Below are positions 36,563 through 62,492 of a stretch of 64,000 nt of DNA, in pieces. Made by a program: the position numbers and the translations under genes. Numbering within the stretch: position 1 is the stretch's first letter; each line of letters opens with the position of its first letter. The stretch lies in NCBI RefSeq assembly GCF_001659785.1, contig NZ_CP015961.1:682001-746000 (forward strand), read 5' to 3'. A model generated the notes under the pieces. That model was given only the letters and a program-made list of their open reading frames with translations. It was not told the DNA's origin and made no database searches. Origin of the DNA: Dietzia timorensis (GTDB lineage Bacteria > Actinomycetota > Actinomycetes > Mycobacteriales > Mycobacteriaceae).

Positions 36563-37261
36563 CTAGCCGAGAGAAGCGTGGAGCTTCGCCCGGGTCGGGT
36601 CGGCGTCCGAGCCGAGGAGCAGCTCGATGGTGAGCTGCAGCCGGTCCTGAACGTCGGCGGCGGAGGCCCGGCGGGTAAGCCACGCGACGAGATTGGACAT
36701 CCACACATCGGACACGACCCGCGCGATGGACAGCTGCACCTCGGTGGGTTCGCCGTCGGCCATCGCGCGGGCGATGATGCGGTCGATGTGTGTGCCGACG
36801 AGCTCGACCTCCGCGGCGACCGATGCATCGGCGAACATGAACGCACGCGTCATCGCCTCGGTGAGATTGGGGTCGCGCTGCATGGCCGTGGTGATCATCG
36901 AGACGACGACGATCATCCGCTCCTGCGGGGTCGACCCGGGAGGGGCGCTGCGCTCGGTGCGCTCGTCGATGCGGGCGAATTCGCGCGCGAGCGCGGAGAC
37001 GAGAAGATGGACCTTCGAGGGGAAGAAGCGATAGAGCGTCCCGACCGCGACCTCGGCTTTCTCTGCGACGGCGCGCATCTGCACGGCCTCGTATCCGCCG
37101 CGCGAGGCGAGGGCGAGTGTCGCGTCGAGGATCCGCCGGCGACGCTCGCGCTGCGAGGCCGTGGTCGGCACCTCCGGGCTCGCGGTGCGTGCCTTGGTCG
37201 TCTGGCCGCGCTTGCCGGGCGTGATGTCCGAAGGGGCTGAGGGGTCCTCGACGTAGGTCAT
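36563..37261 (-). CDS. kstR: TetR-family repressor KstR of sterol catabolism
   Basis: Repressor of the cholesterol regulon, released by 3-oxo-cholestenoyl-CoA type ligands. The helix-turn-helix is AVAEKAEVAVGTLYRFFPSKVHLL (about residues 64-87, shown in part here as VAVGTLYRFFPSK). The ligand domain contains NLTEAMTRAFMFADAS and VSDVWMSNLVAWLTRRAS, very close to M. tuberculosis KstR as I remember it. The ATG at 37261 gives 232 residues; a TTG three codons earlier is possible. It is divergent from fadE34, as in M. tuberculosis (Rv3574/Rv3573c), and two KstR boxes lie between them, implying autoregulation. Confidence 0.93.
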   Translation of the reverse strand: MTYVEDPSAPSDITPGKRGQTTKARTASPEVPTTASQRERRRRILDATLALASRGGYEAVQMRAVAEKAEVAVGTLYRFFPSKVHLLVSALAREFARIDERTERSAPPGSTPQERMIVVVSMITTAMQRDPNLTEAMTRAFMFADASVAAEVELVGTHIDRIIARAMADGEPTEVQLSIARVVSDVWMSNLVAWLTRRASAADVQDRLQLTIELLLGSDADPTRAKLHASLG

Positions 37262-37375
37262 CTGGTCCAATCTCTTCTTTTCGTGCGGCGCCTGAGGGGA
37301 CGCGCGTGTCTTCCGGCCGACGGCGTTCCGAATTTCGCCAACCGGTTACCGCCGGGGGTATCCACCATGTCATTC

Positions 37376-37389
37376 TGTAACAGGTTCTA
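37376..37389. promoter_or_regulatory. KstR box 1
   Basis: TGTAACAGGTTCTA matches TNNAACNNGTTNNA at every fixed position. It lies on the kstR side of the kstR-fadE34 gap. Confidence 0.85.
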
Positions 37390-37392
37390 GAG

Positions 37393-37406
37393 TAGAACGT
37401 GTTCTA
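37393..37406. promoter_or_regulatory. KstR box 2
   Basis: TAGAACGTGTTCTA is a perfect palindrome and perfect KstR consensus match, centred 17 bp from box 1. The two may serve the divergent promoters or bind KstR dimers side by side. Confidence 0.92.
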
Positions 37407-37544
37407 GTTCCAGGCTAGAGGTTGAGCGGGGATTCTCCGTAATCCCCGCGCACCGTGCTCGAGGCGCTTTGGCGATCCCCGTGCCACAGGAACCTTCTTA
37501 CCTGCAACGGAGCGCCACGGAATTAGTTATACGAGGAGAGCTAC

Positions 37545-39725
37545 GTGACCATCGCCACTTCGAAGGACCAGACCGATATCCAGTCCTCCATCCGCGCGTG
37601 GGCCAAATCGGCGGACCCCGTGGCTGCGACGCGCGCGCAGGAAACCGATTCGCAGGCGTGGCGGGCGCACTGGCAACAATTGGTCGATCTGGGCCTCACC
37701 TCCGTGGCGATCTCCGAAGAGCGCGGCGGAGCGGGCGCCGAGATCGTCGACCTCGCCTGCATGCTCGAGGAGACCTCGGCCGCTCTCGTCCCGGGCCCGC
37801 TGCTCTCCTCGACCCTCGCCGGCGTGCTCGTGGACCATTGCGGCGGCGCCGTCGCCGAGGCGCACGCAGAGGCGTTGGCGGAGGGTGAGCTGCAGGCGGG
37901 CGTCGTGCTCGCGATCCGCGGCGAGGTTCTCGAGGCCTCGGGAGACACGGTCTCCGGTGACGCCGGCATCGCACTCGGCGGCACCTCCGGCGGCGCCGTG
38001 CTCCTTCCGGTGCGCCGCGACGGAGAGACGGAGTGGCTGTTTCTCGCGCCCGACACCGAGGGCCTCGCCGTCGAATCCGGCACCCCGTTCGACATCTCGG
38101 CGAACTCCGCCCGCGTCCACCTCGATTCGGTGCGGATGACGCCGGAGAACACACTCACCGGCCTGCACACCGAGCTCGTCCATCATCTCGCGGTCACCCT
38201 GGCGTCCGCCGAGCTCGCCGGCATCGGCGACTACACGCTGCGCACCGCCGTCGAATACGCGAAGATCCGCGAACAGTTCGGAAAGACCATCGGCTCTTTC
38301 CAGTCCATCAAGCACCTCGCGGCGAACATGCTGTGCCGTACGGAGGAGATCCGCGCGCTGGCCTGGGACGCGGCCGTCGCTGCCGGCGAGGCCCTCCGCT
38401 CCGGGGACAGCGAACTCGACATCTCCGCCGCGACCGCCGGCGCGCTGGCATTCGATCTCGCCGTGCGCAACGCGCAGGACTGTATCCAGATCCTCGGCGG
38501 CATCGGCTACACCTTCGAGCACGAGGCCCACTTCTACCTGCGCAAGGCCGCCGGATTGCGGCAGGCGATCGGTGGCTCCTCGCACTGGCGGCGCGAACTT
38601 GCCGCCCGCACCCTCGCCGGGCGCCGCCGCCACCTCACCATCGACCTGTCCGAGATCGAGGGTATCGACGACACCCGCGCCGAGGTGCGCGCGCTCGTCG
38701 CCGATGTCGCCGCGGCTCCCGAAGGGGAAGCCCGTCGCCGTGCGCTTGCGGACAGTGGCCTGTTCATGCCGCACCTGCCCGAGCCGTATGGTCGCGGCGC
38801 TTCGGCCGCGGAGCAGCTCGTCATCGATGAGGAGCTCGGCGCAGCGCAGGTCGCGCGCCACGACATCACCATCGGAGGTTGGGCGGTGCCGACCATCTTG
38901 TCCGCCGCTCCGCAGCACGCCGATCAGTTCGTCCGCCCGACGATGTCGGGCGATCTCAAGTGGTGCCAGCTGTTCTCCGAACCGGGCGCGGGCTCGGACC
39001 TCGCCGCGCTCACCACGAAGGCCGAGAAGGTTGACGGTGGCTGGAAGATCAACGGCCAGAAGGTGTGGACCTCGCTGGCCCGCGAGGCGGACTGGGCGAT
39101 GTGCCTCGCCCGCACCGACCCAGACGCGCCGAAGCACAAGGGGATCAGTTACTTCCTCGTCGACATGAAATCCGAGGGCATCAGCACCTCTCCGTTGCGC
39201 GAGATCACCGGCGAGGCGCTGTTCAACGAGGTGTATCTCGAGGATCTCTTCGTTCCGGACGAGTACCAGATCGGCGAGGTCAATGAGGGGTGGAAGATCG
39301 CCCGCACGACCCTCGCGAACGAGCGCGTCGCGATGGGCGGTGGCTCCTCGCTCGGCGATTCCGTCGAGGAACTCCTCGGGCTCATGCGCGACGCCGGCCT
39401 CGATTCGGATCCGGTCACCCTCGACGCGCTCGGCCGCCACGTCGCGGACGCGGTCGCCGGCTCGCTTCTCGATCTGCGTACGGCGATCCGGTCGCTCGAG
39501 GGCAACGGCCCCGGCGCCGAGTCCGCGGTCCGCAAGATCGTTGGCGTCCGCCACCGCCAGGACGTCGCCGAGTTCGCCTACGAGCTCGTCGGAGAGGCCG
39601 GATTCGACTTCACCGAACAGGGCCGGAAATTCCTCATGGTGCGCTGTCTGTCCATCGCGGGCGGCACCGAACAGGTGCTGCTCAACGTCGCCGGCGAGCG
39701 CATCCTCGGCCTGCCCCGCGGATAA
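37545..39725 (+). CDS. fadE34: Two-domain acyl-CoA dehydrogenase FadE34 (ChsE3-like)
   Basis: Flavoenzyme of sterol side-chain beta-oxidation; FadE34 desaturates steroid-CoA thioesters with a C5 side chain. The 726 residues contain two acyl-CoA dehydrogenase halves. The N-half (about 1-350; YAKIREQFGKTIGSFQSIKH, IQILGGIGYTFEHE) has the flavin/adenine region, and the C-half (about 351-726; CQLFSEPGAGSDLAAL, KINGQKVWTS, SIAGGTEQVLLNVAGE) has the substrate region. This is the M. tuberculosis Rv3573c architecture, and both are divergent from kstR. Start is GTG at 37545 with GAGGAGAG upstream. First gene of a four-gene operon. Confidence 0.92.
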   Translation: MTIATSKDQTDIQSSIRAWAKSADPVAATRAQETDSQAWRAHWQQLVDLGLTSVAISEERGGAGAEIVDLACMLEETSAALVPGPLLSSTLAGVLVDHCGGAVAEAHAEALAEGELQAGVVLAIRGEVLEASGDTVSGDAGIALGGTSGGAVLLPVRRDGETEWLFLAPDTEGLAVESGTPFDISANSARVHLDSVRMTPENTLTGLHTELVHHLAVTLASAELAGIGDYTLRTAVEYAKIREQFGKTIGSFQSIKHLAANMLCRTEEIRALAWDAAVAAGEALRSGDSELDISAATAGALAFDLAVRNAQDCIQILGGIGYTFEHEAHFYLRKAAGLRQAIGGSSHWRRELAARTLAGRRRHLTIDLSEIEGIDDTRAEVRALVADVAAAPEGEARRRALADSGLFMPHLPEPYGRGASAAEQLVIDEELGAAQVARHDITIGGWAVPTILSAAPQHADQFVRPTMSGDLKWCQLFSEPGAGSDLAALTTKAEKVDGGWKINGQKVWTSLAREADWAMCLARTDPDAPKHKGISYFLVDMKSEGISTSPLREITGEALFNEVYLEDLFVPDEYQIGEVNEGWKIARTTLANERVAMGGGSSLGDSVEELLGLMRDAGLDSDPVTLDALGRHVADAVAGSLLDLRTAIRSLEGNGPGAESAVRKIVGVRHRQDVAEFAYELVGEAGFDFTEQGRKFLMVRCLSIAGGTEQVLLNVAGERILGLPRG

Positions 39726-39751
39726 CGACCACTGCCCGAAGCGGAGGACTC

Positions 39752-42058
39752 ATGGACTTTTCCCGAAACGATACTCAGGCCGCGGTCGCCGAGGCGGTGG
39801 CGGGCGCACTCAACAGCGCTGCGCCGTCCGAGGAGCTCCTCACGGCGCTCCCGAGCCGCTCGAGCGATGATGCGGGCTTCGACGAGAAGCTGTGGAGCGC
39901 CTTTGCCTCGGGCGGGTTGCTCGATCTCGCACTTCCCGAATCCCTTGGTGGCGATGAGCTCACGGTCGCGGACGTCGCCGTCGCGCTCGAGGAGGTCGGT
40001 CGCGCGGGGGCGATAATCCCCGCGACCGAAACCCTCGGTTTCGGCATCGCGCCGATCGTCGCCTTCGGCACCGCGGAGCAGCGATCCCGACTCCTCGAGG
40101 ACATGTCCTTCGGGCCCATTCTCACCGCCGCGTGCGGAGAACCGGGCGCTCCGATGACGACGGAGCCGCGAACCCGCCTCGACGCAGGCGCCCTCCACGG
40201 CGTCGTGACGGGAGTGCGCTTCGCCGCACAGGCTCGGACCATCCTCGTTCCCACCGCCGACGGAACCATCGCGGCCGTCGCGCCGGACGCCCCCGGGGTC
40301 TCGCTTACACCGACCCTCGGCAGCCTCGGCGTCCCCGAGTACGCGGTCTCGTTCGATGGGGCCGAGGTCCAAGAGATCCTCACCGGCGACGGCGACACAC
40401 TGGTTCCGCGACTGCGCGCCCTGCAGCGCGCGGCAATCCTCGCGAGTGCTGACGGCCTCGTCTCCGGGGCGCTGGCGATGACCGCCGAGTATCTCAAGGG
40501 CCGGGAGCAGTTCGGGCGCCCGCTCGGAGCGTTCCAGGCGGTTCAGCAGGAGCTCGCGGACGTTTACGTCGTCGCGCAGAACATGCACAACCTCTCCACC
40601 AGCGTGAACTGGCGTCTCGCGGCGGGTCTCGCGGGCGAGAGCGACCGATACGCTGCAGACGAGTACATCGCTGCGTGGTGGCTCGCGAGCGAGGGTCCGC
40701 GAGCGATGCAGCTGCTCCACCACCTGCACGGCGGCGTCGGTGTGGACATCACGTATCCGATGTTCCGCTACTTCTCCGGCCTCAAGGACCTCGCCCGCCT
40801 CGCCGGCGGTGCCGAACTCAACCTCGACGCGGTAGCGGCGAGCGAGGCCTCCCCGAACTCAGCCTCGCCCACCGAGGCGGGCGATGAGATGTTCATCGAC
40901 CTCACCGAACCTCAGCGTGCGCTCCAGACCGAACTGCGCGAGTACTTCGGCGGGCTCATCTCCCCCGAGGAGGCCGCCGACATGGCGACCACCCGCCACG
41001 GTGAGACCTATCGCAAGGTCATCCGCCGGATGGGGGAGGACGGCCGTCTGGGTGTCGGCTGGCCGAAGGAATTCGGCGGCAAGGGCTTCGGCCCGATCGA
41101 ACAGCAGATCTTCACCAACGAGGCGAACCGCGCGGACGTGCCGCTGCCCTCGGTCACCCTGCAGACGGTCGGACCGACTCTACAGAAGTACGGAACCGAG
41201 AAGCAGAAGGAGAAGTTCCTTCCTGGCATCCTCGCCGGCACCGTCCATTTCGCCATCGGTTACTCCGAACCCGACGCCGGAACCGATCTCGCCTCTCTGC
41301 GCACCACCGCGAAAAAGGACGAGGCCACCGGAGATTGGATCATCAACGGCCAGAAGATGTGGACCACCGGCGGACACGACGCCGACTACATCTGGCTCGC
41401 CGCCCGCACCGGCACCCCGGAGTCGCGCCACAAGGGCCTCACGATCTTCATCGTCGACACCTCCGACCCGGGCTTCTCGTTTACCCCGATCATCACCGCC
41501 GACGGTGCGCACCACGTGAACGCGACCTACTACTCGGACGTGCGGGTGCCCGCGGACATGGTCGTCGGGGAGGTCGACGGCGGCTGGAAAATGCTCACGA
41601 CCCAGCTCAATCACGAACGCGTCATGCTCGCTCCCGCCGGCCGTCTCGGTCTCTACCTGGACCGCTTGCGCCGATGGGCGGACACATCCACCCATGACGT
41701 CGGGCGCCGCGCCGAGCAGCCGGCCGTGCGCGCCGGCCTCGCCGAAATCCAGGCGCTCTACCGCATCAACGAGTTGCTCAACTGGCAGGTCGGGGCGACA
41801 GGAGACAACCCGTCGATGGGAGACTCGGCTGCCTCGAAGGTCTTCGCGACCGAGCGGATCCAGCATGTCGGCCGGCTCATCGAGGAGCTTCTCGGGCGGT
41901 ACGGCAACCCGGCCGAACCCGCCGATGCGGAGTTCGCCCGCTGGCTCGACATGATGATCAAGCGAAACGTCGTCATCACCTTCGGCGGCGGGGTCAATGA
42001 GGTCATGCGCGAGCTGGTCTGCATGGGCGGGCTCGGAATGCCGCGGACGGCCAGGTAG
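39752..42058 (+). CDS. chsE1-chsE2: Fused ChsE1-ChsE2 acyl-CoA dehydrogenase
   Basis: Desaturates the three-carbon (propionate) side chain of steroid-CoA intermediates. In M. tuberculosis this is an alpha2-beta2 complex of FadE28 (ChsE1) and FadE29 (ChsE2), encoded separately. Here residues 1-360 resemble FadE28 (MDFSRNDTQAAVAEAV; KGREQFGRPLGAFQAVQQ; HHLHGGVGVDITYPM). Residues 380-768 resemble FadE29 (MFIDLTEPQRALQTELREYF; GPIEQQIF; SEPDAGTDLASLRTT; ITFGGGVNEVMREL). A Ser/Pro/Glu-rich linker (about 361-379) joins them without a stop or frameshift. M380 (40889) is a possible internal start. RBS GGAGG precedes ATG 39752. Confidence 0.92.
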   Translation: MDFSRNDTQAAVAEAVAGALNSAAPSEELLTALPSRSSDDAGFDEKLWSAFASGGLLDLALPESLGGDELTVADVAVALEEVGRAGAIIPATETLGFGIAPIVAFGTAEQRSRLLEDMSFGPILTAACGEPGAPMTTEPRTRLDAGALHGVVTGVRFAAQARTILVPTADGTIAAVAPDAPGVSLTPTLGSLGVPEYAVSFDGAEVQEILTGDGDTLVPRLRALQRAAILASADGLVSGALAMTAEYLKGREQFGRPLGAFQAVQQELADVYVVAQNMHNLSTSVNWRLAAGLAGESDRYAADEYIAAWWLASEGPRAMQLLHHLHGGVGVDITYPMFRYFSGLKDLARLAGGAELNLDAVAASEASPNSASPTEAGDEMFIDLTEPQRALQTELREYFGGLISPEEAADMATTRHGETYRKVIRRMGEDGRLGVGWPKEFGGKGFGPIEQQIFTNEANRADVPLPSVTLQTVGPTLQKYGTEKQKEKFLPGILAGTVHFAIGYSEPDAGTDLASLRTTAKKDEATGDWIINGQKMWTTGGHDADYIWLAARTGTPESRHKGLTIFIVDTSDPGFSFTPIITADGAHHVNATYYSDVRVPADMVVGEVDGGWKMLTTQLNHERVMLAPAGRLGLYLDRLRRWADTSTHDVGRRAEQPAVRAGLAEIQALYRINELLNWQVGATGDNPSMGDSAASKVFATERIQHVGRLIEELLGRYGNPAEPADAEFARWLDMMIKRNVVITFGGGVNEVMRELVCMGGLGMPRTAR

Positions 42059-42072
42059 AGGAGAACACGACG

Positions 42073-43569
42073 ATGACTACCGACCAGCACACAGAACAAC
42101 AGAACGCGCGGATCGAAAAGTTCGCTGCCGATGTTCGGGCCGACGGACCGAGCTCGCGCCGCAGCGCGCGCGACCCGATCAACATGCCGATGATCCGCAA
42201 CTGGACCGAGGCGATCGGCGACGAGAACCCGATCTACGAGTCCACCGACGCCGCTCGCGCCGCCGGGCACGAGGGCATCGTCGCACCGCCCGCGATGGCG
42301 CAGGTGTGGACGATGCGCGGGCTCGGGCGCAGCTGGTCCGACGACGACCCCCTCGCGCGGATGACCTACTTCCTCGACGAGGAGGGCTTTACTTCCGTAG
42401 TGGCGACGAACTGCGATCAGAAGTACCACCGCTACACCAGGCCTGGCGAGGAGGTCACGGTGGATTCCGAGCTGACCGACGTCGTCGGGCCGAAGACCAC
42501 GGGCCTGGGTACCGGCTGGTTCTTCACCACCCACTCGACGTGGCGGGTCGGCGAGGAGAAGGTCGCCGAAATGGACTTCCGAATCCTCAAGTTCGCCCCG
42601 CCCGCAGCCGGAGACAAGCCGCGCGCGGGCGGCGCCGACAAGGGATCGGGACGTCCGGCGTCAGAGGCGATCGTGTCCTCTCTCGGCGCCGATACCTCGG
42701 ACCTCGTGCCGGGTAAGGTGCTTCGTCCGAGCGTTTCGCAGGACACCCGCTTCTTCTGGGACGGGGTCCGCGCGCACGAGCTACGCATACAGAAGCGCCC
42801 CGACGGTTCGCTACAGCATCCGCCTGTTCCCGCACTGTGGAAGGATAAGAGCGAGGAGACCGATTACGTCGTTTCCTCGGGGCGCGGCACGGTGTTCTCG
42901 TTCGTCGTGCACCACGCTCCGCGGGTGCCCGGTCGCACACGCTTCCCGTTCGTCATCGCGCTCATCGAACTCGACGAGGGCGTTCGCATGCTCGGCGAGC
43001 TCCGAGGTATCGACCCTGCAGATGTGGAGATCGGTCTCGAGGTCTGCGCCGAGTTTCTCGATATGCCCGGCGATGATTCGCCGGACGCGCAGCCGGGCAC
43101 GGAGCCGTGGACGCTCTACGCCTTTGCGCCCGCTACGCCTGTCGAGAAGACGGTGCCGGCGACGCCGCCGGCGGTAGCGGTGGGGCAGCGGCTGCCGGAG
43201 CTACGAATTGCCGGCACGCCGACGTTCATCGTGTCGACCGCGCTCGCCACGCGCGATTTCCAGGACGTGCACCATGACCGGGACCTCGCCCACGCAAAGG
43301 GTTCGAAGGACATCTTCGTCAACATCCTCACCGACACCGGGCTCGTCGAGCGCTATGTCACCGACTGGGCCGGCCAGCGCGCCCGCGTGCGCTCGGTAGC
43401 ACTTCGGCTCGGCGTGCCCTGGTATGCGTACGACACTCTCGCCCTGTCGGGCACGGTGGAGAGCGTCGACCCAAGTGGGCTCGTGACCTGCAAGGTGGTG
43501 GGCACCGACTCTCTCGGAGCGCACGTCACCGCGACGGTGGAACTGACGATGGACGAGGCGAAGGGTTAG
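42073..43569 (+). CDS. chsH2-chsH1: Fused ChsH2-ChsH1 steroid enoyl-CoA hydratase with DUF35 domain
   Basis: Hydrates the C17 propenoyl-CoA side chain made by ChsE1-ChsE2. In M. tuberculosis ChsH2 (MaoC-like plus DUF35) and ChsH1 (MaoC-like) are separate proteins. Here residues about 1-180 are the ChsH2 hot-dog domain, 195-355 the DUF35 domain that partners Ltp2, and 370-498 the catalytic ChsH1 hot-dog domain with hydratase motif ATRDFQDVHHDRD. A Pro/Ala/Thr linker joins the parts. The DUF35 N-terminal segment (DGSLQHPPVPALW) has no cysteines, so a zinc ribbon cannot form there. RBS GAGGAG precedes ATG 42073, 14 bp after the previous stop. Confidence 0.92.
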   Translation: MTTDQHTEQQNARIEKFAADVRADGPSSRRSARDPINMPMIRNWTEAIGDENPIYESTDAARAAGHEGIVAPPAMAQVWTMRGLGRSWSDDDPLARMTYFLDEEGFTSVVATNCDQKYHRYTRPGEEVTVDSELTDVVGPKTTGLGTGWFFTTHSTWRVGEEKVAEMDFRILKFAPPAAGDKPRAGGADKGSGRPASEAIVSSLGADTSDLVPGKVLRPSVSQDTRFFWDGVRAHELRIQKRPDGSLQHPPVPALWKDKSEETDYVVSSGRGTVFSFVVHHAPRVPGRTRFPFVIALIELDEGVRMLGELRGIDPADVEIGLEVCAEFLDMPGDDSPDAQPGTEPWTLYAFAPATPVEKTVPATPPAVAVGQRLPELRIAGTPTFIVSTALATRDFQDVHHDRDLAHAKGSKDIFVNILTDTGLVERYVTDWAGQRARVRSVALRLGVPWYAYDTLALSGTVESVDPSGLVTCKVVGTDSLGAHVTATVELTMDEAKG

Positions 43570-43572
43570 CAC

Positions 43573-44769
43573 ATGAGCGCGAACATTTCAGACCGTACGC
43601 TCGCGGGTCGAGCATCGATCGCCGGGATCGGAGCGACCGATTTCTCCAAGGATTCGGGACGCTCGGAGCTGCGCCTCGCGGCCGAGGCGGTGACCGCCGC
43701 CCTCGACGACGCGGGCCTCACCCCGGGAGATGTCGACGGTCTCGTCTCGTTCACGATGGATACGAACACCGAGATAGCAGTGGCGCGCGCTTCGGGGATC
43801 GGCGAGCTGAAGTTCTTCTCCCGCATCCACTACGGTGGCGGCGCCGCGGCGGCGACCGTGCAGCAGGCCGCCATGGCCGTCGCGACGGGCGTCGCTGAGG
43901 TCGTCGTCTGCTACCGCGCCTTCAACGAGCGGTCCGGCATGCGCTTCGGCCAGGTCAATTCCTCGCTCGTGCAGCAGGTCAATTCCTCGGGCACGGACAA
44001 CGCATTCAGCTACCCCCACGGCCTGTCGACTCCCGCCGGGTTCGTCGCCATGGTTGCGCAGCGATACATGCACGACTACGGGGCGACCAGCGAGGACTTC
44101 GGGCGCATCGCCGTTGCCGACCGTAAGCATGCCGCCAACAACCCCAATGCCTTCTTCCACGGCAAACCGATCACGCTCGCCGAGCACCAGTCCTCGCGAT
44201 TCATCGCCGAGCCACTACATCTGTTGGATTGCTGCCAGGAGTCCGACGGCGGAGTCGCGATCGTCGTCACCACCCCTGAGCGCGCCAAGGACCTGCGCCA
44301 GGCGCCCGTCACCGTCGCCGCGTCGGCCTCCGGTGCGGGACCGGACCAATACATTATGACGTCGTACTACCGACCCGAGCTGGCGTCACTGCCCGAGATG
44401 GGCCTTGTGGGGCGGCAGCTCTGGGGGCAGGCGGGATTCGGCCCCGCGGATGTCGACGCGGCGATTCTCTACGACCACTTCACCCCGTACGTGCTCATGC
44501 AGCTCGAGGAGCTCGGCTTCTGCGGGCGTGGAGAGGCGCCGGACTTCGTGCGCCAGGACGGCGTCTTCGATGTCGACGGCGCGCTCCCGCTCAACACGCA
44601 CGGCGGCCAACTCGGCGAAGCCTATATCCACGGCATGAACGGAATCGCCGAGGGCGTCCGCCAGTTACGGGGAACCTCGGTCAATCAGGTGTCCGGCGCG
44701 GAACGAGTCCTCGTCACCGCAGGCACGGGCGTGCCGACTTCGGGCCTCGTACTCACCGCTGGGGGCTAG
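43573..44769 (+). CDS. ltp2: Thiolase-like steroid retro-aldolase Ltp2
   Basis: Cleaves the hydrated side-chain CoA ester to a C17-ketosteroid and propionyl-CoA, ending side-chain removal, in complex with the ChsH2 DUF35 domain. The 398 residues have the lipid-transfer/thiolase fold: IAGIGATDFSKDSGRSELRL, YGGGAAAATVQQAAMAV (no cysteine where a thiolase nucleophile would sit), and NTHGGQLGEAYIHGMNGI near the end. The start ATG at 43573 is three bases after the chsH stop. Its stop overlaps that of the convergent CDF gene by 4 bp, so it closes the operon. Confidence 0.92.
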   Translation: MSANISDRTLAGRASIAGIGATDFSKDSGRSELRLAAEAVTAALDDAGLTPGDVDGLVSFTMDTNTEIAVARASGIGELKFFSRIHYGGGAAAATVQQAAMAVATGVAEVVVCYRAFNERSGMRFGQVNSSLVQQVNSSGTDNAFSYPHGLSTPAGFVAMVAQRYMHDYGATSEDFGRIAVADRKHAANNPNAFFHGKPITLAEHQSSRFIAEPLHLLDCCQESDGGVAIVVTTPERAKDLRQAPVTVAASASGAGPDQYIMTSYYRPELASLPEMGLVGRQLWGQAGFGPADVDAAILYDHFTPYVLMQLEELGFCGRGEAPDFVRQDGVFDVDGALPLNTHGGQLGEAYIHGMNGIAEGVRQLRGTSVNQVSGAERVLVTAGTGVPTSGLVLTAGG

Positions 44770-45686
44770 TGGACGAGCCGCTCGCGAGAGCTGTGCTCGG
44801 CGGTCTCGAGCTGGAACGTCGCGTGCCCGACGGGGATGTCGAAATGGGAGGCGACGCAGGTTTGTAGGTCCGCGAGTATTTCCATCGCGTGGCCGTCGCG
44901 CATGCACTCGTTGCGGATGACGACATGGCCGGTGATAACCGGTACGCCCGTCGCGATGAGTTCGGCGTGGAGATCGTGCACGTCCTCGACGTGGTCCATC
45001 GACAACATGTGCTCGCGAACCTCTCGCAGGTCGAGGCCCTTCGGAGTCGACGCGAGCAGGACGTGGACGGTATCTCGGAGCAGGACGATCGTGCGAGGAA
45101 CAATGAGCGCGCCGATGAATAGCGAGGCGATGGCGTCCGCCCGCGTCCACCCGGTCGTCGCGATGACGACCGCGCCGATGATGACGGCAACCGAGCCGAG
45201 CGCGTCATTGAGCACCTCGAGGAAGGCCGCCCGCAGGTTGAAGCTGTTCGATCGGCTGGAGGACAGAATCGCGAGAGCGACGATGTTGCCGGCGAGACCC
45301 GCGATGCCGAACCACAGCATCGGCCCATGCGCGACCTCGGGCGCGGAGAGTAGGCGCCGCACGGCCTCGACGAGAACGAATACGCCGATCGATAGCAGGA
45401 TGAGCGCCTGCACGGCCGCCGCGATGACTTCCGCGCGCTTGAATCCCCAGGTTCGTTTCATCGTCGGCGGGCGTAGCGCCAGCGAGGCGGCGACCAGCGC
45501 GATGACGAGCCCCATCGCGTCCGTGAGCATGTGTCCGGCATCGGCGAGTAGCGCGAGCGAGCCAGACCAGGCGGCACCGATGATGCCGACGGTCATAATG
45601 GACAACGTGACGGCTAACGCCGCCGTGAGCCTCTTGCGGTCGCTCACCCCATGGGCGTGGGAATGGCCGTGAGAATGGTCGTGCAC
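44766..45686 (-). CDS. Cation diffusion facilitator (zinc/cobalt exporter)
   Basis: Membrane antiporter expelling divalent metals. A His-rich N-terminus (HDHSHGHSHAHG) precedes six transmembrane helices. The metal site of helix 2 is intact (HMLTD), but helix 5 reads FLEVLNDALGS, with glutamate where many zinc CDFs have histidine (HVLGD), which could change metal choice. A cytoplasmic C-terminal domain follows (HVEDVHDLHAELIATG, HVVIRNEC). Start GTG at 45686 follows GGAGGGAGG. Length 306. It is unrelated to the neighbouring sterol operon. Confidence 0.9.
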   Translation of the reverse strand: MHDHSHGHSHAHGVSDRKRLTAALAVTLSIMTVGIIGAAWSGSLALLADAGHMLTDAMGLVIALVAASLALRPPTMKRTWGFKRAEVIAAAVQALILLSIGVFVLVEAVRRLLSAPEVAHGPMLWFGIAGLAGNIVALAILSSSRSNSFNLRAAFLEVLNDALGSVAVIIGAVVIATTGWTRADAIASLFIGALIVPRTIVLLRDTVHVLLASTPKGLDLREVREHMLSMDHVEDVHDLHAELIATGVPVITGHVVIRNECMRDGHAMEILADLQTCVASHFDIPVGHATFQLETAEHSSRERLVH

Positions 45687-51598: not shown

Positions 51599-53215
51599 CT
51601 ACACGGTGGCTTCGTCGGCCACCGTCCGTTTTGCCCACCGGTAATCCGCCTTGCCCGAAGGCGAACGAAGAACCTCGGGCACCACGACGACCGAACGCGG
51701 AACCTTGTAGCCCGCGAGGCTCTTACGGCAGTGCGCGGCGAGCTCCTCCGCGGAAGGCTCCTCGAAGCCGTCGCGAATCGAGACGACCGCGGAAACCCGC
51801 TCGCCGTACTTCGGGTCCTTCGCGCCGGCGACGAGGGCGTCGAAGATAGCCGGATGCCCCTTGAGTGCCTGTTCGACCTCCTCGGGGAACACCTTCTCGC
51901 CGCCCGTATTGATGCAACCAGAGCCCCGTCCGAGCAGAACGATCGAACCGTCGGCCTCGACCCTGGCCATGTCCCCGAGGACCGACATTCGCCGCCCGTC
52001 CGACAGCGTCTTGAAGACGTTCGCCGACTTCTCGGGGTCCTTATAGTATTCGAGCGGCACATGCCCGACACGTGCCATGTAACCGATGGTGTCGCTGCCG
52101 GGCTCGACGGGATCGAGCAGCTCGTCGATGACGATCGAGCGCGGGCTCGGCGGCAAGCGCAGTTCGCCGGCGTCGTTCATGCTCAGCTGCCCGTCGGTGC
52201 CCGACTCCGAAGCGCCGAAATTGTCGCGGATGAAGATATCGGGCAGCACGGTCTTGAGCTTGTCTCGGGATGCCTGCGACCAGATCGCCCCGCCCGAGTT
52301 CACGGCGAACAGCGAGGACACATCGTAGGCATCGAAATTATCGACGAGCTCATCGACGAACGGCACCCCCATCGCGTCGCCGACGATCATGATGATCTGC
52401 GCCTTCTCCTCGCCGATGAGTCTCAGCGCCTCAACCGGATCCCAATTGCGCATGAGTACCTGTTTCGCGCCCATGAAGAACATCGAGAACATCGCGTAAA
52501 CGGCGGCACCGTGAATGAGCGGCGCCGTGACCAGTAGCGACATTGCCGGCGTTTCCTTTGCGGCGTTGCACAACTCCTCGACCGTGTCGTGGGGGTCGCC
52601 GTACTGATTGCCGCCCGCCAGCGCCGCGTAATAGAAATCGGTGTGCGTCCACACGACGCCCTTCGGATGTCCCGTCGTCCCGCCGGTGTACACCATGTAG
52701 TGGTCGCGGCCCGAACGCTCCGGGAATTCCCTGTCCGGGGACTGGTCGGGTATGACGTCGGACCACGCGGATAACCCGACTCCGGCGTCAGAACACTGCT
52801 GTGTAAATGCGTCGGAAACCTCGCCCACCACCAGGACATGCTGCAACTCGCCGAGGCCTCCGAGGATCTCGCCGGCGACGCCGGTGAATTCGGAGTCGAT
52901 GATGATGAGTTTCGAGTCCGAGTTCGAATACAGGTATTCGAGTTCGGACGAGGTATAGCGAAAATTGATGTTGACCGGGACCGCGCGGACCTTGAGGGTG
53001 CCGATGAGGCCCTCGACGAACTCGAGGCTGTTGCGCATGTGCATCGCGACGTGGTCGTTCGCCCCGATCCCGATGGATTCGAGGAAGTGGCCGACCTTGT
53101 TGGCGCGTTCGTCGAGTTCGGCGTAACTCAGCCGGGCGCCCTCGAAGTACAGGGCCTCGCGGTCCGCGAGCGAATCGGACAGGGCTTCGAAAGCATCGGC
53201 AAGGTTCATCGACAT
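51599..53215 (-). CDS. fadD19: Steroid-CoA ligase, FadD19-like
   Basis: Likely activates the sterol side-chain acid (3-oxo-cholestenoate type) with CoA and ATP to start beta-oxidation. Contains YTGGTTGHPKGVVWTHTDFYY, the FGASESGTDGQ adenine motif, GRGSGCINTGGEKVFPEEVEQ and the catalytic lysine in RSPSGKADYRWAKR, whose wording is nearly that of M. tuberculosis FadD19. 538 residues from ATG 53215 with GGAG upstream. A perfect KstR box lies 50 bp upstream, placing it in the sterol regulon, unlike the related ligase at 47069. The exact side-chain length preferred cannot be told. Confidence 0.88.
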   Translation of the reverse strand: MSMNLADAFEALSDSLADREALYFEGARLSYAELDERANKVGHFLESIGIGANDHVAMHMRNSLEFVEGLIGTLKVRAVPVNINFRYTSSELEYLYSNSDSKLIIIDSEFTGVAGEILGGLGELQHVLVVGEVSDAFTQQCSDAGVGLSAWSDVIPDQSPDREFPERSGRDHYMVYTGGTTGHPKGVVWTHTDFYYAALAGGNQYGDPHDTVEELCNAAKETPAMSLLVTAPLIHGAAVYAMFSMFFMGAKQVLMRNWDPVEALRLIGEEKAQIIMIVGDAMGVPFVDELVDNFDAYDVSSLFAVNSGGAIWSQASRDKLKTVLPDIFIRDNFGASESGTDGQLSMNDAGELRLPPSPRSIVIDELLDPVEPGSDTIGYMARVGHVPLEYYKDPEKSANVFKTLSDGRRMSVLGDMARVEADGSIVLLGRGSGCINTGGEKVFPEEVEQALKGHPAIFDALVAGAKDPKYGERVSAVVSIRDGFEEPSAEELAAHCRKSLAGYKVPRSVVVVPEVLRSPSGKADYRWAKRTVADEATV

Positions 53216-53264: not shown

Positions 53265-53278
53265 TAGAACGTGTTCCA
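53265..53278. promoter_or_regulatory. KstR box upstream of fadD19
   Basis: TAGAACGTGTTCCA fits TNNAACNNGTTNNA at all fixed positions, 50 bp upstream of the ligase start. Confidence 0.88.
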
Positions 53279-55934: not shown

Positions 55935-56798
55935 TTACTTTTCCTGTGCGAGAACGATGTTGCCGAGCACGGGGGCGTTGTCGCGCTCTACGGAATCTGC
56001 GGTGGCGACGAAGCCGTTCTCGGTCCGCCACGCGCGCACCCGCAGCGTCTCGCCGGGGAAGAGGATGCCGGCGAAGCTCACGCCGTACTGGGAGATCCCG
56101 GCTACGTCGCCGTCATACAGTGAGTCCACCAACGCGCGAAGGACCAGCCCGTATGAACCCAGACCGTGCATGATCGGGCGATCGAAACCAGCCCTTCGGG
56201 CGAACTCCGGATCCGAGTGCAGTGGGTTGCGGTCGCCACAGAGACGGTAGAGAAGTGCCTGGTTGGGTGCGGTCGGCACCTCGATCTCGTGGTCGGGCGC
56301 GCGATCGGGGTAGGCGACCTTCTCCGAGGTGCCGCGTTCGCCGCCGAAGCCGCCCTCGTCGCGGGCGAAGATCGACGAGCGGGCGCGCCACAGCTCGGTG
56401 CCGTCCTCGGCCGTCGTCGTCGATTCCTGGACGATGACGGCGGCCTTCCCCTTGTCCTGGAGGTCCGCGATCTTCGTGCGGGTCGTTGCGGTGCCGGATG
56501 CGGGGATCGGTCCGAGGGGGAACACGTGCTGAGCGCCGTGCACCACCTTCGCAAGGTCGATCTCGACCCCGGGGAACGAGACCTTCGGCGCCTCCGTGAC
56601 GTGCATCGTCGCGGCGACCGTCGCGAACGACGGCAGCACCAGCGGCGAGCGGTCGTCGATGTAGCGCAGACCCGTTGTGTCGAGCGGATCACGCGCGGCG
56701 CCGACCGCGAGATTGTAGAGCGCCACGTCGGAGGCATCCCACGAGAATGTCTGCGCGGGGAGCTCGGCGCCGAGAGCGATTTCCGGATCGATGGGCAT
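55935..56798 (-). CDS. chsH3: Steroid enoyl-CoA hydratase, MaoC family (ChsH3-like)
   Basis: R-specific type hydratase acting on an early side-chain enoyl-CoA in sterol degradation. Double hot-dog fold of 287 residues: N-terminal half with DVALYNLAVGAA, C-terminal half with hydratase-2 motif LYRLCGDRNPLHSDP (Asp-x4-His) and GFDRPIMHGLGSYG. It corresponds to M. tuberculosis Rv3538 by length and by its place next to kstD on the same strand. AAAGAGG precedes ATG 56798. It is co-transcribed with kstD (45-bp gap). Confidence 0.87.
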   Translation of the reverse strand: MPIDPEIALGAELPAQTFSWDASDVALYNLAVGAARDPLDTTGLRYIDDRSPLVLPSFATVAATMHVTEAPKVSFPGVEIDLAKVVHGAQHVFPLGPIPASGTATTRTKIADLQDKGKAAVIVQESTTTAEDGTELWRARSSIFARDEGGFGGERGTSEKVAYPDRAPDHEIEVPTAPNQALLYRLCGDRNPLHSDPEFARRAGFDRPIMHGLGSYGLVLRALVDSLYDGDVAGISQYGVSFAGILFPGETLRVRAWRTENGFVATADSVERDNAPVLGNIVLAQEK

Positions 56799-56843: not shown

Positions 56844-58526
56844 CTACTGCGCGACGCGGGCTGCGATGTGCTCGGCGGCGAGCGCGCCGAACACGACCGA
56901 TGGGCCGATCGTCGCGCCGGGGCCGGCATAGGTGTGTCCCATGACCGGGGACGAACAGTTGCCCGCAGCGTAGAGACCCTCGATCGCTGAGCCGTCCTCG
57001 CGGAGCGCCTGCGCGTCCGCGTTGGTCGTGATGCCGCCCTTGGTGCCGAGGTCGCCCGGAACCATCTTGACGGCGTAGAACGGCGCCTTGCCGAGTTCCC
57101 CGAGCGCGGGGTTGGGCTTGTTCGAGACATCGCCGTAATAGTGGTCGTAACCGGACTTGCCGCGGCCGAAGTCCTCGTCGACGCCGGCGCGGGCGAAGCC
57201 ATTGAAGCGTTCGATGGTAGCGGTCAGCTGCTCGGCGGGGACCTCCATTTTCTCGGCGAGGCCTTCGATCGTGTCGGCGGAGACGATGATCCCGTTCTTG
57301 AACCAGCGCCCCGGAAGCGGCTGGCGCGGGGCGTTGCCGGCGAACATGTAGCGGTCGCGGACGCGCTGGTCGAGGACGAGCCACGCGGGTACGTTCTCGC
57401 CCGGACCGGAGCCTTGCCCGAATTCGCCTCCGTACATGTGGTGCACGGCTTCCACGTAGGGGAGAGATTCATTCATGAACCGCTCGCCGCGGGTGTTGAC
57501 CATGATCGTGCCGGGCAGCGAACGTTCCGATAGCGCGAACCAGGGGGTTCCCTTGAGCGGGATCGTCGGGCCCCACCACGCGTCCTCCATGAAATCGACT
57601 CCCGCGCCGATCCGCTGTGCCGCCTCGATAGCGTCGCCAGTGTTCGCGGCCGCGCCGACCGTCCACTTGGTGGTGATCGGTTCGCGCTGGTACTTCTTGC
57701 GCATCTCCTCGTTGTGCTCGAAACCGCCTGCGGTGAGAATGACCCCGTGACGGGCGCGAATCGTCTCCCGCTCGCCCGAGCGCTCGACGACGACACCGGT
57801 GACGCGCGTGTCGGAGCCCTCGCCCTCGGTGGCGAGATCGACGAGCGGGGTCTCGAGCCACAACGGGATCTTGTGGTCGAACAGTCCCTGTCCGAGTGCC
57901 GCCATGAGCGCCTGCCCGCGCACGACCATCCGCTTGCGCGCGACCTGGTAGGCGAGATAGCGGGTGCCCACCTTGACTGCGCGCAGCGGTCCTTCGGCGG
58001 AGCGCAAGAGCATGTTGAGCCGTTTGTAGTCGGCCTGAGTGAGAACGAAGTTGCGCGGCGTCTTGGTGTAGTCGGGCTCGAGAAGCTTGCGATTATCGCC
58101 CATCGAGTTGAGGTCGAAGGGCTTCGGCTCCACCGAGCGCCCACTGAGCCGCCCGCCCGGCGCCTCGGGGTAGTAGTCCGAGTAGTTCTTCACCCATTCC
58201 ATCCGCAGAGGCGTGCGCTCGAGTAGGAAATCCAGAATGCGCGGTCCGTGGTCGAGATAGGCGTCGATCCGGTCGAGTGACACGCCGGAGATGATCGACG
58301 TGAGGTACTGGCGCGCCGCGGTCGGATTGTCGCGCACGCCGTCGCGCACTAGCACCGAGTTATTCGGAATCCACACGCCGCCGCCTGACCGTGCGGTGGA
58401 ACCGCCGAAGTGCGGCGCCTTTTCTATGAGAACCACGGACAGTCCCTTGGCCTGCGCCGCGAGGGCGGCGGCCACGCCGCCCGCGCCGCTGCCCACCACG
58501 ACCACATCGAATTCGCTCTGCGTCAT
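56844..58526 (-). CDS. kstD: 3-ketosteroid-delta1-dehydrogenase
   Basis: FAD enzyme introducing the C1-C2 double bond in ring A, which leads to ring opening. FAD-binding VVVGSGAGGVAAALAA at the N-terminus and GPGATIGPSVVFGALAAEHI at the C-terminus are diagnostic. The substrate region includes GGVWIPNNSVLVRDG and YAGPGATIGP. The protein has 560 residues from ATG 58526. A KstR box lies two bases upstream of the start, so repression is direct. With chsH3 it mirrors M. tuberculosis Rv3537-Rv3538. Confidence 0.95.
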   Translation of the reverse strand: MTQSEFDVVVVGSGAGGVAAALAAQAKGLSVVLIEKAPHFGGSTARSGGGVWIPNNSVLVRDGVRDNPTAARQYLTSIISGVSLDRIDAYLDHGPRILDFLLERTPLRMEWVKNYSDYYPEAPGGRLSGRSVEPKPFDLNSMGDNRKLLEPDYTKTPRNFVLTQADYKRLNMLLRSAEGPLRAVKVGTRYLAYQVARKRMVVRGQALMAALGQGLFDHKIPLWLETPLVDLATEGEGSDTRVTGVVVERSGERETIRARHGVILTAGGFEHNEEMRKKYQREPITTKWTVGAAANTGDAIEAAQRIGAGVDFMEDAWWGPTIPLKGTPWFALSERSLPGTIMVNTRGERFMNESLPYVEAVHHMYGGEFGQGSGPGENVPAWLVLDQRVRDRYMFAGNAPRQPLPGRWFKNGIIVSADTIEGLAEKMEVPAEQLTATIERFNGFARAGVDEDFGRGKSGYDHYYGDVSNKPNPALGELGKAPFYAVKMVPGDLGTKGGITTNADAQALREDGSAIEGLYAAGNCSSPVMGHTYAGPGATIGPSVVFGALAAEHIAARVAQ

Positions 58527-58527
58527 G

Positions 58528-58541
58528 TAGAACACGTTATA
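58528..58541. promoter_or_regulatory. KstR box at the kstD start
   Basis: TAGAACACGTTATA fits TNNAACNNGTTNNA, immediately next to the kstD ATG, where it would overlap the transcription start. Confidence 0.85.
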
Positions 58542-58617
58542 GAAATGGGCGAACAACCGCTAGCGATTTCGGCGGTATTCCCTGCGCTCCCTTGCTTGGA
58601 GTGCGAAAGCCGCTATT

Positions 58618-60494: not shown

Positions 60495-61412
60495 ATGAGC
60501 GACTCGCGCATTCTCACCGCCGCGATCGTCGGCTCGGGCAACATCGGTACCGATCTGATGTACAAGCTCGAGCGCAGCGACTACATCGAGCCGAAGTGGA
60601 TGATCGGCATCGACGCCGGATCCGAGGGCATGAAGCGCGCCCGAGACCACGGGCTGACCTGCATGTCGGGAGGCGCGCAGGAGCTTCTCGACTCGATCGC
60701 CGCCGGAGGCGAGGTGCCGGACCTTCTTTTCGAGGCGACGAGCGCCTACGTGCACAAGGAGTTCGCCCCGAAGTACGAGGAGGCCGGCATCATTGCGATC
60801 GACCTCACCCCGGCCGCAGTCGGCCCCGCGGTGATCCCGCCGGCAAACCTCACCGCGCACGTTGATGCCAAGAACACGAACATGGTCACCTGCGGTGGGC
60901 AAGCGACGATCCCGATGGTCCACGCGGTGAGCTCGGTCGTGCCGGTCGAGTACGCCGAGATCGTCGCGTCGGTGTCGTCCGAGTCCGCAGGGCCCGGTAC
61001 GCGCGCGAACATCGACGAGTTCACCCAGACCACGAAGAACGCGATCGAGTCCATCGGCGGGGCACGCAAGGGCAAGGCAATCATCATCCTCAACCCCGCC
61101 GACCCGCCCGTGATCATGCGCGACACGATCTTCTGCTCGATCCCCGAAGACGCCGACCACGACCTGATCTCCACGTCCATTCGCAAGCGGGAGAAGGAGA
61201 TCCAGGAATACGTGCCCGGCTACCGGCTACTGCAGGAACCACAGTTCGATCCGCCTTCGGAGACCTCCGGCGGGATGGCGCGTGTCGCGATCTTCGTCGA
61301 GGTCGAAGGCGCCGGGGACTTCCTGCCCGAATACGCAGGAAACCTGGACATCATGACCGCCGCCGCGACGAAAGTCGGCGAAGAGGTCGCCAAGTCGAAG
61401 CTCGGGGTCTAG
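60495..61412 (+). CDS. hsaG: Acylating acetaldehyde/propanal dehydrogenase
   Basis: Oxidises the aldehyde released by HsaF to acyl-CoA (propionyl-CoA in sterol catabolism) with NAD and CoA. Rossmann motif [14 protein letters not shown] at the N-terminus, catalytic C133 ([11 protein letters not shown]), and [14 protein letters not shown] in the dimer region. 305 residues. AGGAG precedes ATG 60495. It channels the aldehyde by forming a complex with HsaF, whose gene starts 9 bp later. Confidence 0.95.
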
Positions 61413-61421
61413 GAGGACGCC

Positions 61422-62492
61422 ATGGACACCACAAATCCCATCAACGCCAACGCCCGCGCCTTCTCAGCGGACCTCGACATCCGGATCACCGACTCCTCGC
61501 TGCGCGACGGCTCACATCACAAGCGCCACCAGTTCACCCGCGAGGACATCGTGTCCGTGGTCGGCGCGCTCGATGGCGCCGGCGTGCCGGTCATCGAGGT
61601 GACCCACGGCGACGGACTCGGCGGCGGCTCGTTCAACTACGGCTTCGGCCGGACGAACGAGCAGGAACTCATCAAGGCGGCGGCAGAGACCGCGAAGAAC
61701 GCGAAGATCGCGTTCCTCTCGCTCCCCGGTGTCGGCATCAAGGACGACATACTCGCCGCGCGCGACAACGGTGGCCAGATCTGTCGCATCGCCACGCACT
61801 GCACCGAGGCGGACGTGTCGATCCAGCACTTCGGCTACGCACGCGAGATCGGCCTGGAGACCGTCGGCTTCCTCATGATGAGCCACACCCAGCCGCCCGA
61901 GGTACTCGCGAAGCAGGCCAGGATCATGGCCGACGCCGGCTGCCAGTGTGTGTACATCGTCGACTCGGCCGGTGCGCTCGTCATGGAGCAGGTCTCCGAC
62001 CGTGTGTCCGCGCTGGTCGCCGAGCTCTCCGGCGACGCCCAGGTCGGGTTCCATGGCCATGAGAATCTTGACGTCGGGGTCGGGAATTCCATCATGGCGA
62101 TCCGGGCCGGCGCGCAGCAGATCGACGGCTCGACCCGCCGCTTCGGCGCGGGCGCCGGCAATACGCCCGTAGAGGCGCTCGTCGGCGTGTGCGACAAGCT
62201 CGGGATCACCACCGGGGTCGACTTCTTCAAGATGGCTGACGCCGCCGAAGACGTGGTCGCGCCGATGATGCCGAGCGAGTGCCTCGTCAACCGCGATGCG
62301 ATGATGCTCGGATACGCGGGCTGCTACTCCTCGTTCCTCAAGCATGCACAGCAGCATGCGCGCCGGTACGAGGTTAAGACGGCCGATATCCTGCTGCGCG
62401 CCGGCGAGCGTGGCCTCATCGGCGGGCAGGAGGATCAGCTCATCGACATCGCCCTCGAGCTGCAACGTGAGGGGCGACTGGAAAGCGCGTAA
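61422..62492 (+). CDS. hsaF: 4-hydroxy-2-oxoacid aldolase
   Basis: Class II aldolase splitting 4-hydroxy-2-oxohexanoate to pyruvate and propanal. TIM-barrel HMGL-like domain with metal and substrate residues in [29 protein letters not shown] and the metal-binding [12 protein letters not shown]. The C-terminal DmpG communication domain contacts HsaG ([17 protein letters not shown]). 356 residues, longer than average by about 15 owing to its N-terminus. Coupled to hsaG. Confidence 0.95.

Follow-up and report, generated by a model that had tools for sequence, protein, structure and literature searches.

A probable KstR-controlled sterol side-chain operon of Dietzia timorensis encodes ChsE1-ChsE2 and ChsH2-ChsH1 as single chains

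The steroid acyl-CoA dehydrogenases (ACADs) and MaoC hydratases are odd enzymes in that one half is catalytically dead yet kept. In their unfused forms, the ChsE and ChsH enzymes are heteromers (PMC8399759, PMC11321319; here and below, each article is drawn on for part of its text). CasC instead carries an inert half and then a catalytic half (PMC8399759), and FadE34 acts in the second cycle of side-chain removal, the one preceding the last (PMC6678751). Here we describe a locus of Dietzia timorensis in which both heteromers are encoded as fused proteins. It lies in a 64,000-nucleotide stretch (the window), contig positions 682001-746000 of a 3.6-Mb single-contig genome, and consists of four plus-strand genes: fadE34, chsE1::chsE2 (768 aa), chsH2::chsH1 (498 aa) and ltp2. 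We consider it very probable that this is a KstR-controlled sterol side-chain operon, in which single-chain ChsE1::ChsE2 and ChsH2::ChsH1 carry out chemistry known from two-subunit enzymes.

The coordinates of the open reading frames were checked, and the intergenic gaps were 26 bp (39726-39751), 14 bp (42059-42072) and 3 bp (43570-43572). A first-pass annotation of this DNA had proposed these gene identities in this order, gaps of 3-26 bp, and in-frame fusion of both subunit pairs; domain matches to solved steroid enzymes, the measured gaps and the frame comparisons below bear all of this out. At its stop, ltp2 overlaps by 4 bases the end of a cation-efflux gene that runs towards it. The genes and boxes are, in window positions:

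36563-37270, minus strand: kstR, encoding a TetR-type repressor of cholesterol catabolism and transcribed divergently from fadE34 (322.5 bits with NCBIfam NF033703, cut-off 280)
37376-37389, no strand assigned: KstR-type box TGTAACAGGTTCTA, found with the pattern TNNAACNNGTTNNA
37393-37406, no strand assigned: KstR-type box TAGAACGTGTTCTA, found with the same pattern
37545-39725, plus strand: fadE34 (ChsE3-type), two fused ACAD domains, the N half resembling ChsE1 and the C half ChsE2 by domain comparison
39752-42058, plus strand: chsE1::chsE2, one gene, 768 aa (matches to the 6wy8 chains; uninterrupted frame in relatives)
42073-43569, plus strand: chsH2::chsH1, one gene, 498 aa (domain matches; junction compared with relatives)
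43573-44769, plus strand: ltp2, retro-aldolase (6ok1_A, 1.3e-171; NF005892, 691.3 bits, cut-off 469)

The pattern that defines the boxes, which we take to be the KstR consensus, occurs five times in the window against 0.17 expected, and two of these boxes sit between kstR and fadE34. The whole genome has 30 such boxes, compared with 9 for the pattern reversed, and the interval from 719 to 804 kb accounts for 11 of the 30. The operon therefore has both features by which we assign genes to the KstR regulon, a KstR orthologue and upstream boxes. A separate box (53265-53278) lies about 50 bp ahead of a minus-strand acyl-CoA synthetase gene (51599-53215), which is probably a further member of the regulon.

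The 768-aa protein divides into two ACAD halves joined by a short linker:

39752-40810, plus strand: ChsE1 half (inert), residues 1-353 (6wy8_A match over residues 38-360)
40811-40891, plus strand: ChsE1-ChsE2 linker, residues 354-380
40889-40891, plus strand: in-frame ATG (M380) at the edge of the ChsE2 half, a possible internal start (upstream duplex -7.6 kcal/mol)
40892-42055, plus strand: ChsE2 half (catalytic), residues 381-768 (6wy8_B match, 4.5e-100)
41615-41617, plus strand: Glu622 codon, aligned with ChsE4 residue 247

Residues 38-360 matched Tcur3481 (1.3e-37) and residues 382-768 matched Tcur3483 (4.5e-100), the two chains of the solved structure 6wy8. The ChsE4 and ChsE5 chains (4x28) came a close second (2.9e-96 and 4e-34). 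The genome has a ChsE4-type gene elsewhere, at 3.32 Mb, which fits 4x28_A at 1e-157; we rejected FadE26-FadE27 (ChsE4-ChsE5) as the identity of ChsE1::ChsE2 because of that gene and because the fused protein prefers 6wy8, if narrowly. Among 31 aligned fused proteins, the column of ChsE4 residue 247 holds glutamate in 31/31 catalytic halves and in 0/31 inert halves, with none within 3 columns; Glu622, like ChsE4 residue 247, is presumably the catalytic base, and its confinement to the E2-type half is what a ChsE1-ChsE2 dehydrogenase is expected to show. The preceding gene, a two-domain ACAD adjoining kstR and on that basis FadE34 (ChsE3), matches ChsE1 with its N half (3e-7) and ChsE2 with its C half (1.9e-36), so the fused ChsE repeats the order of FadE34. 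Of the 23 Dietzia genomes searched, 20 contain ChsE1::ChsE2 as an uninterrupted whole-protein match (in one, from residue 7); the three left out were G001, G008 (partial on one contig) and G013 (paralogue only). A sequencing error was rejected as the source of the fusion, since the frame is open in those 20 and the other three are not assessable. Judged by its reading frames, ChsE1::ChsE2 is a Dietzia-wide fusion.

The 498-aa protein has the domain order ChsH2-MaoC (residues 14-179), ChsH2-DUF35 (217-331) and ChsH1 (369-495):

42112-42609, plus strand: ChsH2 MaoC domain (inert; Tyr55 replaces the catalytic His, as in PMC11321319)
42721-43065, plus strand: ChsH2 DUF35/OB domain, whose counterpart binds Ltp2 in 6ok1 (6ok1_B, 3.8e-17; PF01796)
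43066-43176, plus strand: DUF35-to-ChsH1 junction, which lacks the stop and start found in the relatives
43177-43557, plus strand: ChsH1 MaoC domain (catalytic; Asp395, His400)

Residue alignment placed Tyr55 at the ChsH2 His position and Asp395/His400 in the ChsH1 half, which are the features of a ChsH1-ChsH2 hydratase, namely an Asp/His dyad in ChsH1 and Tyr for His in ChsH2, as described in PMC11321319. The operon likewise pairs an Ltp2 near TcLtp2 with a DUF35-bearing ChsH2. In all 22 other Dietzia genomes, ChsH2 and ChsH1 were separate matches in separate frames. At the joint itself, 19/19 other Dietzia loci showed a frame offset of 2 and, between identical anchors, 23-86 nt more than D. 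timorensis; every one of these 19 unfused junctions carried a 4-nt GTGA/ATGA stop/start overlap. The corresponding overlap count for ChsE1/ChsE2 was set aside, its anchor beginning past the start codon. In D. timorensis one frame runs through EPWTLYA, the tail of ChsH2, and PPAVAVG, the head of ChsH1; the GTG start of ChsH1 is lost, and codon-position GC is normal across the whole frame. A net difference of 23-86 nt is not a one-base error; by comparison of these junctions, ChsH2::ChsH1 was formed by a small net deletion that removed the stop/start overlap and restored the frame, and it is a later fusion than ChsE1::ChsE2, made in D. timorensis. The split relatives within Dietzia are mostly >70% identical to it. 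From their frames, then, both fusions look real. The ChsH2 DUF35 domain is without zinc cysteines in D. timorensis and in most aligned rows, Mycobacterium included; they are kept in the Catelliglobosispora, Rhizocola, Streptosporangiales and Saccharopolyspora rows.

A lineage map of the two fusions found each of them again outside D. timorensis. The map comprises 136 non-redundant loci (153 were left after filtering, less 17 removed as near-identical), and its counts are not frequencies: 80 loci were the best of 582 candidates and the others were chosen partly because they looked fused. The family searches miss fusions given as split matches (G273, G315) and one used a strict E-value, and no frequency was drawn from them either. 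Within this fusion-biased set, ChsE1::ChsE2 was fused in 32/135 assessable loci (22/125 outside Dietzia) and ChsH2::ChsH1 in 8/136. The ChsE fusion was seen in 9/9 loci fetched from genus g46, where it also occurs in 16/16 genomes with a ChsH match among the matches listed, in 5/6 loci fetched from genus g21, and in eight Gordonia loci. The ChsH fusion was found elsewhere in G. araii, Gordonia UBA7599, G315, Nocardia stercoris, Catelliglobosispora, Rhizocola and a Streptosporangiales metagenome-assembled genome. Both occurred together only in the D. timorensis window and in three loci of the G. araii group. On a quick LG+G4 tree of ChsE2 and Ltp2, the operon is sister to 10 Dietzia rows (eight of them from records that carry the genus name, two from further genomes of that genus), and the fewest state changes over the 136 loci were seven for ChsE and four for ChsH, counts that cannot tell gain from loss. 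Topology tests, for which the clades were picked after the tree was seen, rejected all fused rows as one clade (p 5e-11 for ChsE, 3e-22 for ChsH), and with it a single origin for each fusion. They also rejected Dietzia with the fused Gordonia (p 2.5e-37) and, at only p 0.019, Dietzia with genus g21. A clade uniting the G. araii and G. asplenii groups was not rejected (p 0.58), and adding the G. malaquae group to them was (p 0.00025); given the former result, the ChsE state changes at least 6-7 times. The fusions are a recurrent variant of known enzymes, and their chemistry would be that of the two-subunit forms. No title or abstract beginning listed by open-access literature searches described either one, subscription papers lying outside those searches.

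Linker length and sequence vary from clade to clade; the lengths measured for L078 and L173 stem from a misplaced anchor. Genomes G273 and G387 coincide with G. araii and G. asplenii loci, which places their genus, g24, in Gordonia. Two copies of the palindrome TCTCGATACG-N-CTCGACC lie in the G. araii linker between ChsH2 and ChsH1; the pattern has 70 copies each in G273 (G. araii) and G315, against 0 for the reversed control in the G. araii genome. The pattern occurred in four of the eight genomes searched (70, 70, 14 and 3 copies) and was absent from the other four, both Dietzia included. The G315 ChsH linker has one copy on the opposite strand, the Gordonia UBA7599 linker has none, and the G261 ChsE1-ChsE2 linker has a different inverted pair, as judged by eye. 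It appears that the repeat supplied protein linker sequence in some Gordonia. The linker sites resembling repetitive extragenic palindromes (REPs), together with the other inverted pair of G261, are located at L069:8960-9060 (G273:C17:95524-95624), around L183:9180-9222 and in the L212 linker. Two further observations concern the locus set. The operon of L098, a contig filed as Kitasatospora arboriphila, groups inside Williamsia next to W. muralis, and the record is possibly mislabelled or contaminated. L174, L176 and L177 (genus g25) each have, in another cluster, a gene of 768-795 aa that resembles a fused ChsE1::ChsE2 and lies next to an ACAD pair that is not fused; neither Ltp2 nor ChsH is matched within the fetched stretch of these loci, and this is perhaps a bile-acid cluster.

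The first-pass annotation read the gene order as the joining of two loci that are distant in M. tuberculosis, where we take fadE34 and the igr genes to be far apart. That reading did not hold: fadE34 lies directly upstream of chsE1 in 103 of 130 assessable loci (six of the 136 were cut too short), with a divergent kstR in 102 of those, and we rejected an unusual gene order for the same reason. The annotation also had cyp125 as missing. The gene is indeed absent from the operon, but not from the genome: a CYP125 gene (5e-152 to the solved CYP125) is found at contig 791847-793109, about 65 kb after ltp2, preceded by KstR-type boxes at contig 791665 and 791689, and loss of cyp125 was rejected. 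In the fetched stretches, cyp125 was present in 10/136 loci, all of the Mycobacterium clade and adjoining chsE1. Because fadE34-chsE1 adjacency is usual and cyp125 is found there only in the Mycobacterium clade, the order in the window is the common layout and the Mycobacterium layout looks derived.

For activity, assembly, substrate and FAD sharing, we infer the following scheme. FadE34 would dehydrogenate the C5 side chain in the second cycle, and ChsE1::ChsE2 would dehydrogenate 3-oxo-pregnene-20-carboxyl-CoA, its inert N-terminal half helping to bind FAD and its C-terminal half supplying the glutamate base. ChsH2::ChsH1 would hydrate the product, with the inert MaoC half holding the rings and the C-terminal MaoC half supplying Asp/His; its DUF35 domain would dock it on Ltp2, which would cleave off propionyl-CoA. 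With its two partners covalently joined, each heterodimer would form a pseudo-homodimer like that of FadE34/CasC; a two-subunit ChsE1-ChsE2 dehydrogenase is an alpha2beta2 heterotetramer with two FAD. By analogy with FadE34, CasC and the MFE-2-type hydratase in the window, single-chain forms are an established design that has been reached again here. As FadE34 belongs to the second cycle (PMC6678751), the last cycle would comprise three polypeptides, not four as the first-pass annotation had proposed.

Several points weigh against this reading. It stands on sequence: on genes, frames, homology, residues, regulatory motifs and distribution. The margin of 6wy8 over 4x28 is only narrow, and the C3-side-chain role is therefore assigned from synteny and from the ChsE4-type gene lying elsewhere. 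The ChsH fusion is confined to 1/23 Dietzia genomes and rests on one assembly. The stretch 37270-44900 yielded no sigma-70-like promoter, and its terminator-like matches stayed at chance level. One review assigns ChsH1-ChsH2 a first-cycle step as well (PMC6678751, in the part drawn on). Finally, the in-frame ATG with a fair ribosome site at the ChsE2 boundary means that some free ChsE2 could be made.

This last point can be taken further, to a gene with two products, in which initiation at M380 gives free ChsE2 beside the fusion. Of the 47 internal in-frame ATGs the M380 site ranks fourth, 4% of all in-frame positions equal it, and an ATG is kept at the boundary in 6/22 other fused loci. Three internal ATGs outscore it, however, there is no such ATG in 16/22 other fused loci, among them all nine from Dietzia, and the corresponding GTG start of ChsH1 is gone; we regard two products as unlikely. 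That ChsH2::ChsH1 is a sequencing or assembly error would fit its occurrence in a single Dietzia genome with one assembly of the species, but is very improbable given the size of the difference from the 19 relatives, the in-frame merger with both gene ends recognisable, the normal codon-position GC and the seven other loci with this fusion. A single fixed-stoichiometry degradation complex of all four proteins, as the first-pass annotation suggested, draws on the tight packing of the genes and on the known ChsH1-ChsH2-Ltp2 complex (PMC12329534, PMC6678751). Nothing found ties the dehydrogenases to that complex, FadE34 belongs to another cycle, and other genera have the same order with unfused genes, which makes such an assembly very improbable. 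The proposal that the domains are non-steroid ACADs and hydratases is extremely improbable: NCBIfam models of other ACADs do match, all far below their cut-offs, and against this the ChsE2 half scores 1e-96 to 1e-100 with steroid chains and 3e-34 with the next, the ChsH and Ltp2 matches are likewise steroid, and the operon has KstR control with kstD, hsaAB, fadA5 and cyp125 nearby. The first-pass annotation's assignment of steroid over general fatty-acid enzymes thus stands.

The single-chain enzymes may be convergent: two-subunit steroid enzymes would repeatedly become single chains across Actinobacteria, inert half first and in some Gordonia via in-frame REP palindromes, driven by avoidance of orphan or mispaired subunits and by tethering of hydratase to aldolase, with this Dietzia and the G. 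araii group as the most consolidated forms seen. We hold this tentatively, at somewhat less than an even chance. The fusions may instead be neutral, small indels between overlapping, co-expressed genes joining obligate partners with no benefit or harm, to which we give an even chance. The 4-nt overlap at the unfused Dietzia chsH2/chsH1 junctions means that short indels suffice for fusion; the enzymes are already heteromers, the fused ChsE state changes repeatedly on the tree with gains and losses undistinguished, and REP copies lie inside the ChsH linkers of two Gordonia. A Comamonas mutant in which MaoC and DUF35 were made apart retained both activities (PMC12502768, as far as the part drawn on reports), so tethering does not seem to be required. 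Neutrality is opposed by the presence of the ChsE fusion in all 20 judgeable Dietzia genomes and in all the listed g46 genomes with a ChsH match. The inert-then-catalytic order does not discriminate, because it is the gene order too. We lean slightly to the neutral explanation, also because the separated domains still worked in Comamonas.

Other steroid genes lie near the operon:

55935-56798, minus strand: single-chain hydratase, presumably ChsH3-type, with an MFE-2 hydratase N domain and then MaoC (PF22622, PF01575)
56844-58556, minus strand: kstD, 3-oxosteroid 1-dehydrogenase (NF005882, 903.5 bits, cut-off 788)
60495-62492, plus strand: acetaldehyde dehydrogenase and 4-hydroxy-2-oxovalerate aldolase genes, hsaG/hsaF-type by setting (both above NCBIfam cut-offs, the models not being steroid-specific)

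Within 46 kb past the window end there are hsaA, hsaB, fadA5 and a kshA-type gene. Elsewhere in the genome, two genes for acyl-CoA dehydrogenases, separated by about 62 kb (contig 342893-343339 and 404571-405017), have an identical score (144.4 bits, 454-aa frame), which suggests a recent duplication.

Natural single-chain forms permit a direct test of what the dead half is for and of how linkage affects assembly, stability and transfer to the aldolase, and the split ChsH relatives within Dietzia are close comparison partners. Intermediate channelling by ChsH1-ChsH2-Ltp2 is named as an open question in PMC12329534, in the part drawn on. In steroid biotechnology, single-chain forms may also be easier to use as recombinant enzymes, and in the REP-bearing Gordonia linkers the making of protein sequence from a repeat can be traced.

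Compared with ChsE1-ChsE2, ChsH1-ChsH2 and Ltp2 of the M. tuberculosis igr operon, the Dietzia operon keeps the domains of the same five proteins (ChsE1, ChsE2, ChsH2, ChsH1, Ltp2) in what we take to be the same order, with KstR control and the catalytic residues. It differs in that two pairs are each one polypeptide, fadE34 precedes them and cyp125 is non-adjacent; a strict igr operon has five separate genes, and we class this one as a fused variant that would work in the same way. Among solved structures, the ChsE halves and Ltp2 come closest to Tcur3481-Tcur3483 (6wy8) and TcLtp2-ChsH2(DUF35) (6ok1) of Thermomonospora curvata, which are separate chains and whose DUF35 has the zinc cysteines that the Dietzia domain is without. 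FadE34, which adjoins ChsE1::ChsE2, and CasC follow the same plan of a single chain with an inert N half and a catalytic C half, but are a separate fusion with 28% identity in the C half and act on longer side chains. The ChsH3 and MFE-2 double hot-dog hydratases likewise have two MaoC-type domains per chain and, unlike ChsH2::ChsH1, no DUF35 between the halves.

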